From contig CAMSYM010000001.1 of assembly GCA_947066105.1 (NCBI GenBank), positions 310,001 to 374,000 of the forward strand: 64,000 bases of DNA, given 5' to 3'. Below, one piece after another: positions 2,830-63,474 of this stretch. The notes beneath the pieces were generated by a model. That model saw only the letters and a list, made by a program, of their open reading frames with translations, did no database searches and was not told the origin of the DNA. Source of the stretch: an uncultured Clostridia bacterium. GTDB taxonomy: Bacteria; Bacillota; Clostridia; Christensenellales; Pumilibacteraceae. Numbering within the stretch: position 1 is the first letter of the stretch; every line of letters begins with the position of its first letter. Made by a program: the position numbers and the translations under genes.

Positions 2830-3651
2830 ATGGCACAAAGTTTGACAAAAATACCGTTCGTCGACGAATTGGCGGCGATAGCGGACAATATGTACAGGCT
2901 CGGTTGGGACGAGCGTAACGGCGGCAATATAAGCTATTTGATCCCCGAAAAAGAAGTTGCCGAATACATAGACGTAACAAACGTGATGAGAACTATCCCG
3001 CTCGGTTTCGACGCGGTAGAACTTGTCGGCAAATACTTTTTGGTAACGGGAACGGGCAAATATTTCAAAAACGTAAAAGGCGATCCAAAAACCAATCTCG
3101 GATTGTTCCGTATCGCAAAAGACGGGGCGACGGCGGAGCTTTTATGGGGATATGTCGACGGCGGCAAATTTACGAGCGAATTGCCCGCACACCTTATGAG
3201 CCATATCGCGCGATTGAACGTCGATCCGCAAAACAGAGTGGTGATGCATACGCATCCTACCAATCTGCTCGCAATGACATACGTCCACGAACTCGATACT
3301 AAAAAGTTTACGCATACGCTATGGCAAATGAGTACCGAATGTATCGTCGTTTTCCCCGACGGCGTTGAAGTGTTGCCGTGGATGTTGTGCGGAACTAACG
3401 AGATAGGCGTTGCCACCGCGGAAAAAATGCGCGATGCGCGAGTGGTCGTTTGGGCGTTGCACGGCATATACGGCGCGGGAAAAACGCTCGACGAAACGTT
3501 CGGGCTTATAGAAACGGTAGAAAAAGCGTCCGAAATTTATATCAAAACGGCGCACCTGCCGAGATCGAACACAATAAAAGACGAACAGCTTGTCGAGCTT
3601 GCCAAGCATTTTAATTGCAATTACCGCAAAGAATTTCTCGATATCGAATAA
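2830..3651 (+). CDS. rhaD: Rhamnulose-1-phosphate aldolase
   Basis: Start MAQSLTKIPFVDELAAIADNMYRLGWDERNGGNISYL; class II aldolase family; HTHPTNLLAM metal-binding motif. The longer ORF (2725) overlaps fucO. Confidence 0.94.
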   Translation: MAQSLTKIPFVDELAAIADNMYRLGWDERNGGNISYLIPEKEVAEYIDVTNVMRTIPLGFDAVELVGKYFLVTGTGKYFKNVKGDPKTNLGLFRIAKDGATAELLWGYVDGGKFTSELPAHLMSHIARLNVDPQNRVVMHTHPTNLLAMTYVHELDTKKFTHTLWQMSTECIVVFPDGVEVLPWMLCGTNEIGVATAEKMRDARVVVWALHGIYGAGKTLDETFGLIETVEKASEIYIKTAHLPRSNTIKDEQLVELAKHFNCNYRKEFLDIE

Positions 3652-3778: not shown

Positions 3779-3807
3779 TTGACAAAAAGCGTCCGATTTG
3801 TTATAAT
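3779..3807 (+). promoter_or_regulatory. SigmaA-type promoter, perfect consensus
   Basis: TTGACA (3779-3784) - 17 nt - TATAAT (3802-3807). Confidence 0.75.
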
Positions 3808-3889
3808 GCAAAAGTACCGAAAATGTTGACGTTTCGAATGTCATGCAAAATACTATCGCACAAATTTGACGCAACCGTGTTCGAAACGC

Positions 3890-3917
3890 TTGACTTTTTT
3901 CGGGGGGGGGGTATGCT
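3890..3917 (+). promoter_or_regulatory. Putative second promoter with G10 tract in the spacer
   Basis: TTGACT (3890-3895), 16-nt spacer TTTTTCGGGGGGGGGG, TATGCT (3912-3917). Confidence 0.5.
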
Positions 3918-3966
3918 ATTGTATAATCAATACGCATAAACGTTTTTATCGATCAAGGAGATATGT

Positions 3967-4698
3967 ATGCTCGAAATCAAAAATGTGTCCATGGCTTATG
4001 CCAACGGAAAAGTCAAGGCGGTCGACGATCTGTCGTTTTCGCTCGACGCGGGCGAGATATTCGGTTTTCTCGGCGCTAACGGCGCGGGAAAAACCACTAC
4101 CATCAAAATGGCGACGGGTATTTTGCCTATTAGATCGGGGAGCATTTCGATATGCGGTCACGACATAACGAAAGATCCGATAGCGGCGAAGCGAAGCTTC
4201 GGATTCGTTCCCGATTCGCCGATAATTTTCGACAAATATACAGGTCGGGAATATATCGATTTTATGGCGGATATTTACGGCGTATCCAAGCAGGAACGCG
4301 AGCGCGTTACGAGCGATCTTTTGAAACGTTTTTCGCTCGAAGATGCGTTCGATAAGCGTATAAGCGGGTATTCGCACGGCATGAAGCAGAAGATAGCCAT
4401 AATCGGCGCGCTCATACACAGCCCGTCTTTATGGATATTGGACGAGCCGATGATGGGACTCGATCCGCCGTCCGCGTTCGCGCTCAAAGAGTTGATGCGC
4501 GAACATCGCGATGCGGGAAAAACGGTGTTCTTTTCGACGCATGTGCTTGACGTCGCCGAAAAGCTGTGCGACCGCGTGGCTATAATAAACAAGGGCAGGC
4601 TCGTGCTTTGCGGAAATATGGACGAGATCAAGCGCGCGCAGGGCGACGAGAGTCTCGAAGAGATATTCATGTCTGTGGCGGGCGGTAGCGATGAATAA
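3967..4698 (+). CDS. ABC transporter ATP-binding protein
   Basis: Walker A GANGAGKTT, signature YSHGMKQK, Walker B LWILDEPMMGLDP. Confidence 0.95.
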   Translation: MLEIKNVSMAYANGKVKAVDDLSFSLDAGEIFGFLGANGAGKTTTIKMATGILPIRSGSISICGHDITKDPIAAKRSFGFVPDSPIIFDKYTGREYIDFMADIYGVSKQERERVTSDLLKRFSLEDAFDKRISGYSHGMKQKIAIIGALIHSPSLWILDEPMMGLDPPSAFALKELMREHRDAGKTVFFSTHVLDVAEKLCDRVAIINKGRLVLCGNMDEIKRAQGDESLEEIFMSVAGGSDE

Positions 4699-6364
4699 CT
4701 ATTTTATCGTTTTAAAAGCGCTGTTCAAAAATAAATTCAGATTTGCCGACAATGCGTCCAAGCGCAAAAAGTACGGATTTATCGCGTTGTTGGGCATATC
4801 GTATTTAGCCGTGATGGCAATGTTTATAGGCATGATCGTTGCTCTCGGCGACACGATAGCCGATTTCGAAATATTTCGGTTTATCGTGGTTTACGGCATT
4901 TTGCTCACAGCCGCGCTCGTCGTGTTGATTTTCGGCGTTATCAATCTTATAACCACGCTGTATTTGTGCAAAGATACCGATTTCTTTTCGATGTTGCCGA
5001 TCAAATCGTCGACGGTATTTGCCGCTAAGGTTTCGTACGTATATATTTCGGAAGCCGTTATCGTCGGCGCGATATTATTGCCGCTGTTGATCGCTTTCGG
5101 GATAGTCTGCCATATGTGGGTGTGGTTTTACGTTATAACCGTTTTGGCGGTACTTATATTTCCGGCATTGCCGCTCGTGCTTGCGGCGATAATCGCCATA
5201 CCCGTCATGTATCTTGCGTCAAAGCTGAAAAACCGCTCGGTAGTGTCGTTGATATTTTATATAATACTGTTCGGCGGATTGTTCGGAGCATACTTGTATT
5301 TTCTTAACGTGTCTACCGATTTCTCTGATATAGACGAAAGTTACGTGACGTCGATAGTCGATTCGCTGATAGTCATGCTGTACGTATTTTATCCGTTTAC
5401 CGCGCTCGCTTTGGCGGCAAACGGTTTACCGACGTACGGTTTGAGCGCAGGCGCGGCGTCTGCGGCTAACTTCGGTATATTCGTCGGCAGTTCGGTCGTG
5501 CTGATATTTATCGCGTTGCTTTGCGCGCGGTTCATGTATTCGCAGTCTGCGAAAGCCAATAACCAAACGGACAATTCCAATGTCAAGCACGGCAAATTCA
5601 AAGCTTCGGGAATGACAAAGGCGTTGATGAAACGCGAGTTCATAGGCACTTTGCGCACTACTCAGGTCGCATTTCAGTGCTATGCCGTGGTCGTACTGCC
5701 GATCATTTTCGCGATAGCAATGGGCATTATGTCGCGTAATATGTCCGCGCTCATAAACGGATCGGGCAATGCTTTTTATGCGGAATATTATAACGTCTTT
5801 TTCGGTCTGACGGGCATATGCGCCGTTTCTATGATGTTCGGCACGCTCGGAAACGCCGCGGCTACTACGTTCTCGCGCGAAGGCAGTGCGATCGCAACGC
5901 TTAAAGTTTTACCGGTTTCGGCTAAACAGGTAGTCAAAGCCAAAGTCTGCGCTTGGTTGTGCGTAGCGTTGCCTGCCGCGATAATATCCGTCGTCGTGTT
6001 TAATGCGATCAACTTCGATCTCGAAATGTTCTTGTTATCGATCTTTTCGCTTATCCCGCTTGCGGGTGCGTTCGTGTTGTTCGGGGCGCTGTGGGATCTG
6101 CGATCGCCCAAGATAAAATGGGTAGATCCCATACAGGCGGTAAAGCATAACGGACATGTGGTCATAGGACAACTTCTTTGCATGGCGGGCGGCGTTGCGG
6201 CGCTCATCGTCACGATGCTCGTAGGCAATTTGGCTATCGTTTCCGCACAAACGCTCAAAACCGTTGTGTGGTGCGTTATTTATGCGACGCTCGCCGTTTT
6301 CGTCGTTGTCGATGTCGTGATGTTGCGCAACGTGGAAAAGTGTTACGGCAGGATAGAGATATAA
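4691..6364 (+). CDS. ABC transporter permease (large multi-TM ABC exporter subunit)
   Basis: 557 aa with many hydrophobic segments; overlaps upstream ATPase gene by 8 bp. Confidence 0.85.
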   Translation: MNNYFIVLKALFKNKFRFADNASKRKKYGFIALLGISYLAVMAMFIGMIVALGDTIADFEIFRFIVVYGILLTAALVVLIFGVINLITTLYLCKDTDFFSMLPIKSSTVFAAKVSYVYISEAVIVGAILLPLLIAFGIVCHMWVWFYVITVLAVLIFPALPLVLAAIIAIPVMYLASKLKNRSVVSLIFYIILFGGLFGAYLYFLNVSTDFSDIDESYVTSIVDSLIVMLYVFYPFTALALAANGLPTYGLSAGAASAANFGIFVGSSVVLIFIALLCARFMYSQSAKANNQTDNSNVKHGKFKASGMTKALMKREFIGTLRTTQVAFQCYAVVVLPIIFAIAMGIMSRNMSALINGSGNAFYAEYYNVFFGLTGICAVSMMFGTLGNAAATTFSREGSAIATLKVLPVSAKQVVKAKVCAWLCVALPAAIISVVVFNAINFDLEMFLLSIFSLIPLAGAFVLFGALWDLRSPKIKWVDPIQAVKHNGHVVIGQLLCMAGGVAALIVTMLVGNLAIVSAQTLKTVVWCVIYATLAVFVVVDVVMLRNVEKCYGRIEI

Positions 6365-59075: not shown

Positions 59076-60904
59076 TTTTCGATCTCCTTTTTGGAAAAGC
59101 ATACTGCGATCGGTCTGCCGTGCGGACAGAACAACGTGATGTTGCGCGCAGTCATTTCCGCGAGCAATGCGTCGATCTCCGATTGAGAAAGATCGTCTAT
59201 CTCTCCTTTGACCGCGGCTTTACAAGCCGACTGCATTAGCCGCTCCTTTAAAACCATCGGGCTTTTTTCGCGCGAATTTACAAGGATCAATAAGTCCGAA
59301 ACGAACGAGCGGAAGTCTATCCCCGCGCATTCGTACGGCAAATGCGAAAGCGTGAACGTATACTCGCCGAACGGAGAAATACCGAATCCGCAATCCTCGA
59401 ACATTTCCAAGTTCTCGTTGATAAGCTCCGCGTCTGTCGCCGAAACGTCGAACACGAACGGGATCATAAGCGGCTGAGTTTGCAAACGCTTGGCTTCGTA
59501 AGCAGACAAAAGCTTGTCGTACAATATTTTTTCGTGCGCGGCGTGTTGGTCTATGAAGTAACAATTATCGCCGTGTTCGAGAATAATATACGTGTTGAAC
59601 AACTTGCCTATATACTCGCACTGCGCGACCGAAAACGCTTCGTCCGCTTTGGGCGGATCGGCGGGCGGCGTGTGCATATCGACGTATTCGGGCGCGGTCG
59701 TCGATCCCGTGCAGTCGATCGCTACGCTATCGGTATGCGCCGACGGTTGCTCCGCCGCAAAAACCGTCTGTTGTTGCGCATTGCTACGCTCCGCTTGCGG
59801 CGACACATCGAAAAACGGGCGCAACAAAGTGTGCGACTTGCCGTACTCCGCCGTGCTTTCTTTGACGTCGGTATGCGGCGGCGAAAAAGAAAAATCGTCG
59901 TCGTTTAGCTGTTTTGCCGTCGTCAATTTAGGCAATATCGCGTTTTTGACGGCGCGGGCTATCATCGACTTTACTTTTACCGTATCGGCGAATTTGACCT
60001 GCATTTTGCTCGGATGCACATTGACGTCCACCATATCGAACGGCATGGTTATATGCAACACGAACAACGGATACTGCCGTTTCATCAAATACGACGCGTA
60101 TACGGAATATACCGCATATTGGATATCCTGACTTTCCACGTATCTGCCGTTTATTATGACGTTTTGATAGTTCTTCGACGGCTTGGTAAACGTCGGCAAA
60201 CAGGTGAAACCTTCGACCGACATCGGCGGATCTTGCAGATCCACCTTGACTGTGTTTTTCAAAACGTTGTCGCCGTACACCGCAAACACCGCGCTTTCCA
60301 AGCCTTCGCCAGGCGATTGAAAGTGTTTTACGTCGCTGTCGAATTTAAAAACGATATTCGGATTAGCCAGCACCAAATGCTCTATAAGCGTGAATATCTT
60401 GGTTTCCTCGCGCGCGGGCGTATTGAGAAATTTCTTGCGCGCGGGAATATTTTTGAATAAATTTTGCACGGTGATCACAGTGCCGAATCCCGCGCCGCAC
60501 TCTTCGTGTTCGGTAAGCCTGCCGTTTTCGTATGCAACCTTGCCGCCGAACTCGCTGTCAGCCACGCGCGACACCATAGTAACGTCGGCTACCGCCGCTA
60601 TGCTCGGCAACGCCTCGCCGCGAAATCCGAGCGTTTTTATGGTATCCAAATCGTCGAGCGAGCTTATCTTGCTTGTGGCATGCGGCAAAAACGCGGTCGG
60701 CAAGCTTTCGAAATCTATTCCGCAACCGTTATCGGTTATGCGTATGTAGTCTATGCCTCCGCCCTTGACGGAAACGGAAATTTCGGTCGCACCCGCGTCG
60801 ATCGCGTTTTCGGTAAGCTCCTTGACTATGGACGCGGGACTTTCCACCACTTCGCCCGCCGCTATTCGGTTGAATATCTCGCTCGGTAATTTATTTATCT
60901 TCAT
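59054..60904 (-). CDS. mutL: DNA mismatch repair protein MutL
   Basis: IFNRIAAGEVVESPASIVKELTENAIDAGAT; DNGCGID; LGFRGEALPSIAAV. Confidence 0.97.
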   Translation of the reverse strand: MKINKLPSEIFNRIAAGEVVESPASIVKELTENAIDAGATEISVSVKGGGIDYIRITDNGCGIDFESLPTAFLPHATSKISSLDDLDTIKTLGFRGEALPSIAAVADVTMVSRVADSEFGGKVAYENGRLTEHEECGAGFGTVITVQNLFKNIPARKKFLNTPAREETKIFTLIEHLVLANPNIVFKFDSDVKHFQSPGEGLESAVFAVYGDNVLKNTVKVDLQDPPMSVEGFTCLPTFTKPSKNYQNVIINGRYVESQDIQYAVYSVYASYLMKRQYPLFVLHITMPFDMVDVNVHPSKMQVKFADTVKVKSMIARAVKNAILPKLTTAKQLNDDDFSFSPPHTDVKESTAEYGKSHTLLRPFFDVSPQAERSNAQQQTVFAAEQPSAHTDSVAIDCTGSTTAPEYVDMHTPPADPPKADEAFSVAQCEYIGKLFNTYIILEHGDNCYFIDQHAAHEKILYDKLLSAYEAKRLQTQPLMIPFVFDVSATDAELINENLEMFEDCGFGISPFGEYTFTLSHLPYECAGIDFRSFVSDLLILVNSREKSPMVLKERLMQSACKAAVKGEIDDLSQSEIDALLAEMTARNITLFCPHGRPIAVCFSKKEIEKWFKRIV

Positions 60905-63474
60905 ATCTCGGTCTTTTCCTTCAAGTCGGACAAAATATCCAGCGCCGCGCGCGGTGTCACTTCGTTTATATCGAGTTCTTTCAGTATGCGGATAACTTCG
61001 TCGTACTTGGACACGTTGTCGAAAAGCGAAAGCTGTCGCACGTCGTTGGCTTTATGCGCTATATCGGCGTTGATCAACTGCTCCAACAACTGTTTTGCGC
61101 GGCTCAAAACCGACTGCGGCAGCCCGGCAAGCGCGGACACTTCGATACCGAAGCTTTTGTTCGCGCTTCCGCGCATTATTTTACGAATGAACTTTATGCC
61201 GCCGTCGCTCTCTTTGGCGGTAAACTTGTAATTTTTAAGTCCGCCTATCGTGCCTTCAAGCTCGGTCAACTCGTGGAAGTGTGTGGAAAACAATACCTTT
61301 GCATCGAGATTTCGAGCGATATGCTCGATGACCGCCCACGCTATGCTCAATCCGTCGTATGTGGACGTTCCGCGTCCTATCTCGTCGAGCAAGATCAGGC
61401 TCGCATGCGTCGCGCTGTCGAGTATTGCGGAAACCTCACTCATTTCCACCATGAAAGTACTTCTGCCAGTAGACAGATCGTCGCTTGCGCCGACGCGCGT
61501 GAAAACCTTGTCCACCAGCCCGATCCGCGCCGCTTTTGCGGGAACGAACGAACCCATATGCGCCATTACGGTTATCAACGCGACTTGACGCATGTAGAGA
61601 CTTTTACCCGCCATGTTCGGACCGGTTATCAACATAATTTTCGATTCGCTACTGTCCATTGCCGTATTGTTAGGAACAAACAACTCGTCGGACGGCAACC
61701 GTTCCGCGACGGGATGTCGACCTTCCGATATGTGTATCTCGCCCGTTGTCGTTATTTCCGGCTTGCCGTATCCGTACAGCTTGGCGACCGTTGCGAGCGA
61801 AACCAAACAGTCGAGCTTGGCGACCGTTTTTCCGACAGCCGTTATGGCTTCGCACTTTTCGCGCAGTTTGGACAACACTTCGGCATACAACTGCTTTTCG
61901 CGTTTTTCGGAAAGGTCCGCGGCGTTAAGCACTTTGAATTCGAGTTCTTTAAGCTCGTCGGTCAAATAACGTTCGGCATTAGCGACCGTCTGTCGGCGTT
62001 GGTAATATTCGGGTACTTGCGATTCGAATTGACGCGGGACTTCGATAAAATACCCGAACAAACGATTATACGATATCCGTAAATTTTTGATCTTGGTAGT
62101 TTCGCGTTCGCGCGCTTCCATTTCCGCAATTATCGCACGCGAATTTTTAACAAGCGTTCGGTACTCGTCGAGCGTTTCGTCGTAACCGCTCTTGATCGTA
62201 TAAGGCTCGTCTTTGGATTCGGTATCGAGCGGCGCAACGGCACGGTCCATCAATTCCGTCAAGTCGTCGAGCGGTCGTATATCGTCGCGTATACGAGCTA
62301 TCAACGGCGTGGCGTGACCGTCGAGCGTTTCCTTTATATCCGGCAACGCGTGCAACGACGAGTTAAGCGCAAGTACGTCCTTGGGCTTGATCTCGCCGAG
62401 CGAAAGGTTTGCGGATATTCTGACGATATCGCGCACATTTGCAAGCGACGTTCTTAACCGCTCGCGCATTATCGTATCGGTATATAGTGCGTCGACCGCG
62501 TCGAGCCGTTCGTCTATCGCGGCTTTGACGCAAAGCGGACGCAATATCCATTTTTGCAACAAACGGTCGCCCATAGGCGTACACGTCTTATTAAGCACGT
62601 CGCGCAACGCAGTGCCGCGCTTGCGCGACTGAGATTCGACGAGTTCGAGCGTTTTTGCGGTGTTCGCATCGATGTCCATATATGTTTCGGACTCGTAATT
62701 TTCCGTCGAACCGATATTTACGTCCTTGCGGAACTGCAAGCTCTGCACGTACGAAACGAGCGCGCCTTCGGCGCACAAGCAAGCGGGAGTCTTGCTCAGT
62801 GCGCGCAACTCGCTCTCGTTTACCATGCCCGTCAAAGTTTGTTTTGCCGTCGTCAAATCGAATTTTGCGTCGTCGTATTGCGACATATTGCAAACCGAAC
62901 CGTACTTGACGGCGGACAACTCGACGCTATCGGCGAGCATTTTGGAATTGCAAATTATCTCTGACGGCTTGATGCGCATCAGTAGATCGTTCAGTTTGAC
63001 CTTGATCGGACACGGTATATAATGGTTGTAAGTTTCGGACGTGGTAATATCCGTCCATACCGCGCCGACGCCGTTGTCGTCGAGATACAACGCCATCAAG
63101 TAGTTATTTTTATCGTCGCTCAAACTGTCGGTATCGGTTATGGTCCCGCCCGTTATGATCCGCGTGACGTTGCGATCGACAATGCCCTTGACGGTCGCGG
63201 GATCTTGCATTTGCTCGCAAACGGCTACTTTGTATCCTTTTTTGAGCAATTTCGTTATGTATGTTTGAACGGCATGATGCGGAACGCCGCACATCGGCGC
63301 GCGTTCTTTCATGCCGCAAGCTCTGCCCGTAAGAGTAAGATCGAGTTCGCGCGACGCGGTTTGCGCGTCCTCGAAAAACATTTCGTAAAAATCGCCGAGC
63401 CGAAACATAAGTATCGTATCGGGATATTCGCTTTTTATCTTTCGGTATTGAACCATCATCGGTGAAAGACCCAT
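60901..63474 (-). CDS. mutS: DNA mismatch repair protein MutS
   Basis: MMVQYRKIKSEYPDTILMFRLGDFYEMFFEDA; Walker A TGPNMAGKSLYMRQVAL; DEIGRGTSTYDGLSIAWA. Confidence 0.98.
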   Translation of the reverse strand: MGLSPMMVQYRKIKSEYPDTILMFRLGDFYEMFFEDAQTASRELDLTLTGRACGMKERAPMCGVPHHAVQTYITKLLKKGYKVAVCEQMQDPATVKGIVDRNVTRIITGGTITDTDSLSDDKNNYLMALYLDDNGVGAVWTDITTSETYNHYIPCPIKVKLNDLLMRIKPSEIICNSKMLADSVELSAVKYGSVCNMSQYDDAKFDLTTAKQTLTGMVNESELRALSKTPACLCAEGALVSYVQSLQFRKDVNIGSTENYESETYMDIDANTAKTLELVESQSRKRGTALRDVLNKTCTPMGDRLLQKWILRPLCVKAAIDERLDAVDALYTDTIMRERLRTSLANVRDIVRISANLSLGEIKPKDVLALNSSLHALPDIKETLDGHATPLIARIRDDIRPLDDLTELMDRAVAPLDTESKDEPYTIKSGYDETLDEYRTLVKNSRAIIAEMEARERETTKIKNLRISYNRLFGYFIEVPRQFESQVPEYYQRRQTVANAERYLTDELKELEFKVLNAADLSEKREKQLYAEVLSKLREKCEAITAVGKTVAKLDCLVSLATVAKLYGYGKPEITTTGEIHISEGRHPVAERLPSDELFVPNNTAMDSSESKIMLITGPNMAGKSLYMRQVALITVMAHMGSFVPAKAARIGLVDKVFTRVGASDDLSTGRSTFMVEMSEVSAILDSATHASLILLDEIGRGTSTYDGLSIAWAVIEHIARNLDAKVLFSTHFHELTELEGTIGGLKNYKFTAKESDGGIKFIRKIMRGSANKSFGIEVSALAGLPQSVLSRAKQLLEQLINADIAHKANDVRQLSLFDNVSKYDEVIRILKELDINEVTPRAALDILSDLKEKTEI

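Follow-up and report, generated by a model that had tools for sequence, protein, structure and literature searches.

The sequence analysed is a 64,000-nt stretch of contig CAMSYM010000001.1 (the window) from an uncultured Clostridia bacterium of the family Pumilibacteraceae (the host family). Two genes on its forward strand encode an ABC transporter ATPase of 243 aa (3967–4698; ABC_tran, Pfam PF00005, E 2.8e-26) and an ABC permease of 557 aa (4691–6364; ABC_tran_2, PF16949, E 2.7e-9). The genes overlap by 8 nt, and the pairing of an ABC_tran ATPase with a multi-helix ABC-2-like permease in one operon marks the product as a putative ABC exporter. The gene upstream, which ends at 3651, we take from its sequence to encode a class II (rhamnulose-phosphate-type) aldolase.

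Promoter region of the ABC operon

A forward-strand promoter-like element precedes the ATPase gene. Its −35 hexamer, TTGACT (3890–3895, 5/6 consensus), is separated by 16 nt from a −10 hexamer, TATGCT (3912–3917); the spacer consists of T5C (3896–3901) followed by a tract of ten G residues (3902–3911), the candidate slippage site. A G tract lying between the −35 and −10 hexamers is also the anatomy of the meningococcal porA promoter. An earlier note on this DNA had placed both hexamers and the spacer at these positions, and re-reading the sequence returned exactly the same coordinates. Downstream of TATGCT are ATTG and a perfect TATAAT (3922–3927), a second possible −10 element. We rejected it as the actual −10, as its distance from TTGACT is 26 nt and there is no −35 at 16–18 nt. 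A Shine–Dalgarno sequence, AAGGAG (3955–3960), is positioned 6 nt ahead of the ATG.

Further upstream is a perfect TTGACA-17-TATAAT promoter (3779–3807, forward strand), which matches the consensus at 12 of 12 positions, contains an upstream TG and has the same direction as the ABC operon. We looked for a terminator between this element and the ATPase gene and saw none. It is a possible second or read-through promoter and could drive the operon constitutively, thereby masking a switch. This element and the TATAAT at 3922–3927 had been omitted from the earlier note or merely touched on. Close upstream of the −35 hexamer is a perfect 9-bp inverted repeat, CGTTTCGAA (3830–3838) and TTCGAAACG (3880–3888). 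An RNA element in the leader was also considered and rejected: an Rfam search of the promoter and leader region matched no family, and the predicted fold was only slightly better than that of shuffled sequences (z = −1.85).

G tracts in the source genome

Within the window, the G10 tract stands out as the sole G or C run of more than 6 residues; runs of at least 5 comprise two G5, one G6, one G10 and two C5. A first-order Markov model of the window predicts 0.005 runs of at least 10 in 64 kb. That the tract is the only long G/C homopolymer, as had been noted earlier, therefore holds within the window; genome-wide it does not, as the source genome (2.05 Mb, 28 contigs) contains 51 G runs of at least 9, all of 9–11 residues. 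The same genome contains 7 runs of exactly 8 and 3 of exactly 7, compared to about 4 and 21, respectively, and 0.85 of at least 9, expected from the window-fitted model. The run-length distribution is therefore bimodal, with short runs avoided and long ones kept. From these data we conclude that the G10 tract is beyond chance and falls in the length range that slips (about 8 or more).

The genomic tracts were examined as stretches around each of the 51 runs. In eight cases (the window tract, L017, L018, L019, L026, L028, L040 and L050) the run separates TTGAC from a −10-like box, and L034 shows this layout with the C strand. Twelve are in dispersed repeats, in which a CGAGATGAT- or CGAAATGAT-like end is followed by G9 or G10, and the remainder are within genes, at gene ends or in other intergenic stretches. 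The dispersed repeats (..CTCGTTTCGGTCGAGATGAT, with the variant CTCGAAATGAT) that end in G9 or G10 include L009, L010, L016, L023, L025, L035, L036, L037, L039 and L041. A special 5′ flank was considered and discarded: C precedes 71% of the non-promoter tracts, yet it also precedes 65% of ordinary G3–5 runs. At the 3′ side, T follows 19 of 31 non-promoter tracts and TA follows 15 of 31, whereas T follows 21% of short G runs, making T or TA after long tracts an unusual feature. Host-family promoters with the tract on the C strand often show TA 3′ of the G strand as well.

Several tracts, of G9–11, mark the point where a LytTR response-regulator gene meets a GHKL histidine-kinase gene. The genes were identified by Pfam at L012 and by sequence likeness at L014, L021, L030, L032 and L056. 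A change of one G at such a junction would be predicted to shift stop/start coupling or to fuse the two genes (L030). Further tracts are located inside regulator genes (L049 and L052).

Loss of mismatch repair was rejected as the cause of tract abundance, as MutS and MutL are both encoded in the source genome and its relatives; the window itself contains the mutS gene (60919–63468) and a region encoding the MutL C-terminal domain (59204–59611). With MutS and MutL present, slippage is not bound to be rapid; Neisseria, for its part, switches despite having mismatch repair.

Distribution of poly-G promoters

Host-family genomes were searched with the pattern TTGACN{1,13}G8N{0,8}TANNNT, alongside a reversed control. 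About 300 matches, some overlapping, were found in 44 of 74 genomes, compared to a single match for the control; replacing G8 with C8 gave 16 matches. Counting the window promoter, such promoters thus number at least eight in its genome and roughly 300 in the host family. Outside the host family a strict form of the pattern is rare in the class, occurring in 4 of 245 genomes, one of them the window's own; its C9 version was absent from all 245. A GTDB-wide scan identified at least 119 stretches. Those among the matches listed were largely from Clostridia and Bacilli, with others from Saccharibacteria, Ancillula, Streptobacillus, Treponema ruminis, Helicobacter and Pumilibacter muris; several were from isolates, including a complete Treponema ruminis genome and Pumilibacter muris. 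Comparing the host family with other groups, we read this distribution as that of a promoter type, scattered in other lineages, which has undergone a lineage-specific expansion here. Phage origin was considered and rejected, as the strict pattern had only 5 matches in 2.9 million viral contigs.

Unequal tract lengths were also observed among near-identical promoters, with G8 or G9 at L295, L296 and L299, G8 to G10 at L171, L203 and L214, and G12 or G13 at L183 and L207. One genome (G049) carries a dozen or so near-copies of a TTGACRGC-G8/9/10-TARTGATATAMT promoter (loci including L087, L295, L296 and L297); the copies that were read precede paralogous lipoprotein-like genes and have spacers of 16, 17 and 18 nt.

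We also inspected the genes behind these promoters, calling N-terminal export signals by a simple hydrophobicity rule rather than a trained predictor. Among the GTDB matches listed, 83 of 117 first genes (71%) carried a signal, compared to 64 of 297 neighbouring genes (22%; p = 1e-20). The corresponding values in the host family were 24 of 39 (62%) and 9 of 60 (15%), and 38 host-family genes included 9 ABC ATPases and 4 LytTR regulators. This gene set has the composition typical of contingency loci.

Spacer lengths of poly-G promoters

The earlier note had read 17-nt spacers in nearly all other promoters legible in the window and treated 17 nt as the preferred spacing. For ordinary promoters this stands: exact TTGACA/TATAAT pairs without a G run had a 17-nt spacer in 24 of 34 cases at host-family loci, where the reversed control gave zero, and in 15 of 31 cases at GTDB loci among the matches listed. 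The generalization fails for poly-G promoters, which avoid this length. Their spacers extend from about 14 to 20 nt, a breadth that we attribute to hypermutability of the spacer. In the host family (n = 116), 30 spacers were 16 nt, 13 were 17 nt and 17 were 18 nt. Among the GTDB matches listed (L133–L251, n = 128), spacers of 15, 16, 17, 18, 19 and 20 nt numbered 15, 24, 9, 23, 24 and 19, respectively. The 17-nt share of these G-run promoters differed from that of ordinary promoters (Fisher p = 3.5e-7), and 17 nt differed from its two neighbouring lengths (p = 0.006). When the GTDB matches listed were confined to those with TATAAT flush to the G run (n = 56), the counts for 15–20 nt were 9, 13, 1, 16, 11 and 5. 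The notch at 17 nt points to a full-strength state that few sequenced populations occupy, a reading to be taken with caution given the paralogues included and a test chosen post hoc.

Comparison with a sister species and the genus

A sister species (G006) has 16 orthologous tracts in common with the source genome, with flanks that are 80–98% identical. The number of G residues differs in 7 of the 16, including the window tract, and is equal in 9. As one genome per species was compared, G10 versus G11 in the window tract is a between-species difference, and as the numbers come from metagenome draft assemblies they may be off by one. Two of the seven differing tracts coincide with breaks in G006 contigs that end in G-rich junk, such that single G numbers are good to about one base. 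The G006 contigs of L287, L290, L281 and L288 break off in G- or C-rich junk right where the tracts lie. Host-family drafts are probably fragmented at tracts, with uncertain tract lengths as a result.

At the start of the ABC operon in G006 the flanks are 82% identical, and T4C plus G11 replaces T5C plus G10, leaving the spacer at 16 nt in both species. TTGACT is identical and TATGCT is conserved; the downstream TATAAT is TATAAA in G006, and the TTCGAAACG arm of the inverted repeat is altered. The conserved block, CGAAACGCTTGACTTTTT..G11-TATGCTATT, begins about ten bases ahead of the −35 hexamer. Upstream of the block the G006 sequence is unrelated and, judged from sequence, encodes rarA, with the poly-G promoter positioned just past the rarA stop codon. 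Conservation of the block next to unrelated upstream sequence indicates that the promoter travelled with the operon. No counterpart of the 3779–3807 promoter was found in the G006 upstream region, and a scan of 750 bases around the operon start gave the poly-G promoter as its sole promoter-like match.

An orthologous ATPase is also encoded by fourteen other genus members, and the upstream stretch read in each contained no G run. Switching of this operon would therefore be confined to the two sister species. In six of the fourteen (G002, G003, G011, G013, G015 and G016) a poly-G promoter precedes a different ABC ATPase (L075, L083, L074, L076, L079 and L306).

Discussion

The most likely explanation for these results, to which we assign a probability of about 0.75, is that slipped-strand changes in the poly-G tract tune expression of the exporter in a porA-like manner. 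The site would be a σA-type promoter of the ABC exporter operon whose spacer holds a hypermutable tract. Replication slippage would add or remove G residues, each event changing the spacer by one base, and the −35/−10 distance would thereby move through about 14–20 nt, grading transcription reversibly among cells. G10 gives 16 nt, one G short of the usual 17, and G11 would give 17. That the tract slips within a population, that slippage alters transcription and that switching the exporter brings any benefit are points that we infer. That the site is a phase-variable promoter had been proposed in the earlier note, and the proposal gains support from the bimodal run lengths, the abundance of promoters of the same anatomy in the host family relative to the reversed control, the broad range of spacers, the changed G numbers at orthologous loci, the contingency-type genes and the retention of the block in G006 without the 3779 promoter, all of which are consistent with switching.

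A fixed poly-G spacer of stable length within each species, with promoter strength determined by its stiff, A-like helix or by a bound protein, would account for the 16-nt total kept in both sister species despite their differing T and G runs, for the nine orthologous tracts of equal length and for the dip at 17 nt, which may reflect an optimal spacing displaced by poly-G. We nevertheless regard such a structural or regulatory element as unlikely, as lengths differ in the other seven orthologues and among near-identical promoters. In addition, G9–11 runs of the source genome also fall within coding genes or at their ends, where a promoter role makes no sense and frameshift switching does. It is still less probable that the tract is without effect, a neutral by-product upstream of an operon transcribed from 3779–3807. 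The consensus hexamers of that promoter, its 17-nt spacer, its orientation toward the operon and the lack of an intervening terminator fit this explanation; its absence from G006, where the poly-G promoter is the sole match, does not, nor does conservation of the tract and both hexamers within an otherwise unrelated upstream region, and family-wide the number of G runs between such hexamers is far above control.

A further possibility is that the tract, or the length read for it, arose in sequencing or assembly through Illumina failure at poly-G. G006 contigs end in G-rich junk at L287, L290 and L281, a pattern that matches the 'G's end' contig effect described for Bifidobacterium breve (PMC9187656), and the true number may be 10 ± 1. 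However, the window tract is flanked on both sides by clean conserved sequence, its orthologue also has a tract, and isolates carry similar tracts too, among them Pumilibacter muris and Treponema ruminis, the latter with a complete genome. We consider an artefact very improbable.

Poly-G promoter switching is textbook knowledge for a few Gram-negative pathogens. The poly-G tract of Neisseria meningitidis porA lies between the −35 and −10 elements, and expression follows the order 11G > 10G > 9G, surface expression being 2-fold lower with 10G and 13-fold lower with 9G than with 11G (PMC3639595). Both promoters have a run in the G9–11 range in which one-base changes alter spacing, and as porA output is graded rather than on/off (PMC3639595), by analogy we propose graded output for the window promoter. 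In contrast to porA, which encodes a porin, the window promoter precedes a putative ABC exporter in an uncultured lineage with many such promoters per genome, and the sequenced genomes avoid the 17-nt state. B. breve, a gut commensal, likewise has G10–11 tracts; slippage was measured in a population at its sortase-pilus loci, and the authors also mention G tracts in promoter spacers (PMC9187656). The tracts studied there are coding and act by frameshift, unlike the window tract, such that the coding and gene-junction tracts of the source genome are the nearer parallel. Campylobacter genomes also contain many intragenic and intergenic G tracts, which have been linked to phase variation (PMC8355987, PMC6321876). 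The host family belongs to another phylum, and many of its tracts fall within promoter spacers and LytTR/GHKL two-component systems.

A tentative extension of slipped-strand tuning, to which we give somewhat less than even odds, is that poly-G promoters form a large phasome across the host family, with natural populations sitting mostly 1–2 bases off the 17-nt optimum and full expression rare but quickly reachable. The 17-nt notch would then be a population-genetic trace left by selection against full-on expression, or else would indicate that the geometry of poly-G moves the optimal spacing. As tracts are also found in LytTR/GHKL two-component genes, the switches of such a phasome would reach whole regulons. 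The mechanism itself is known; what looks new, to the extent of the literature searched, is its scale across the family, its extension into two-component systems and the avoidance of 17-nt spacers. That search, with most subscription papers outside its reach, found no report of such promoters in related groups. The depletion of 17-nt spacers is a quantitative and unexpected pattern, and which spacer lengths natural populations keep becomes a question that can be tested from sequence alone. If our interpretation is correct, with poly-G promoters a routine type ahead of surface-protein, exporter and signalling genes, such uncultured Clostridia-like lineages would also diversify by slippage.
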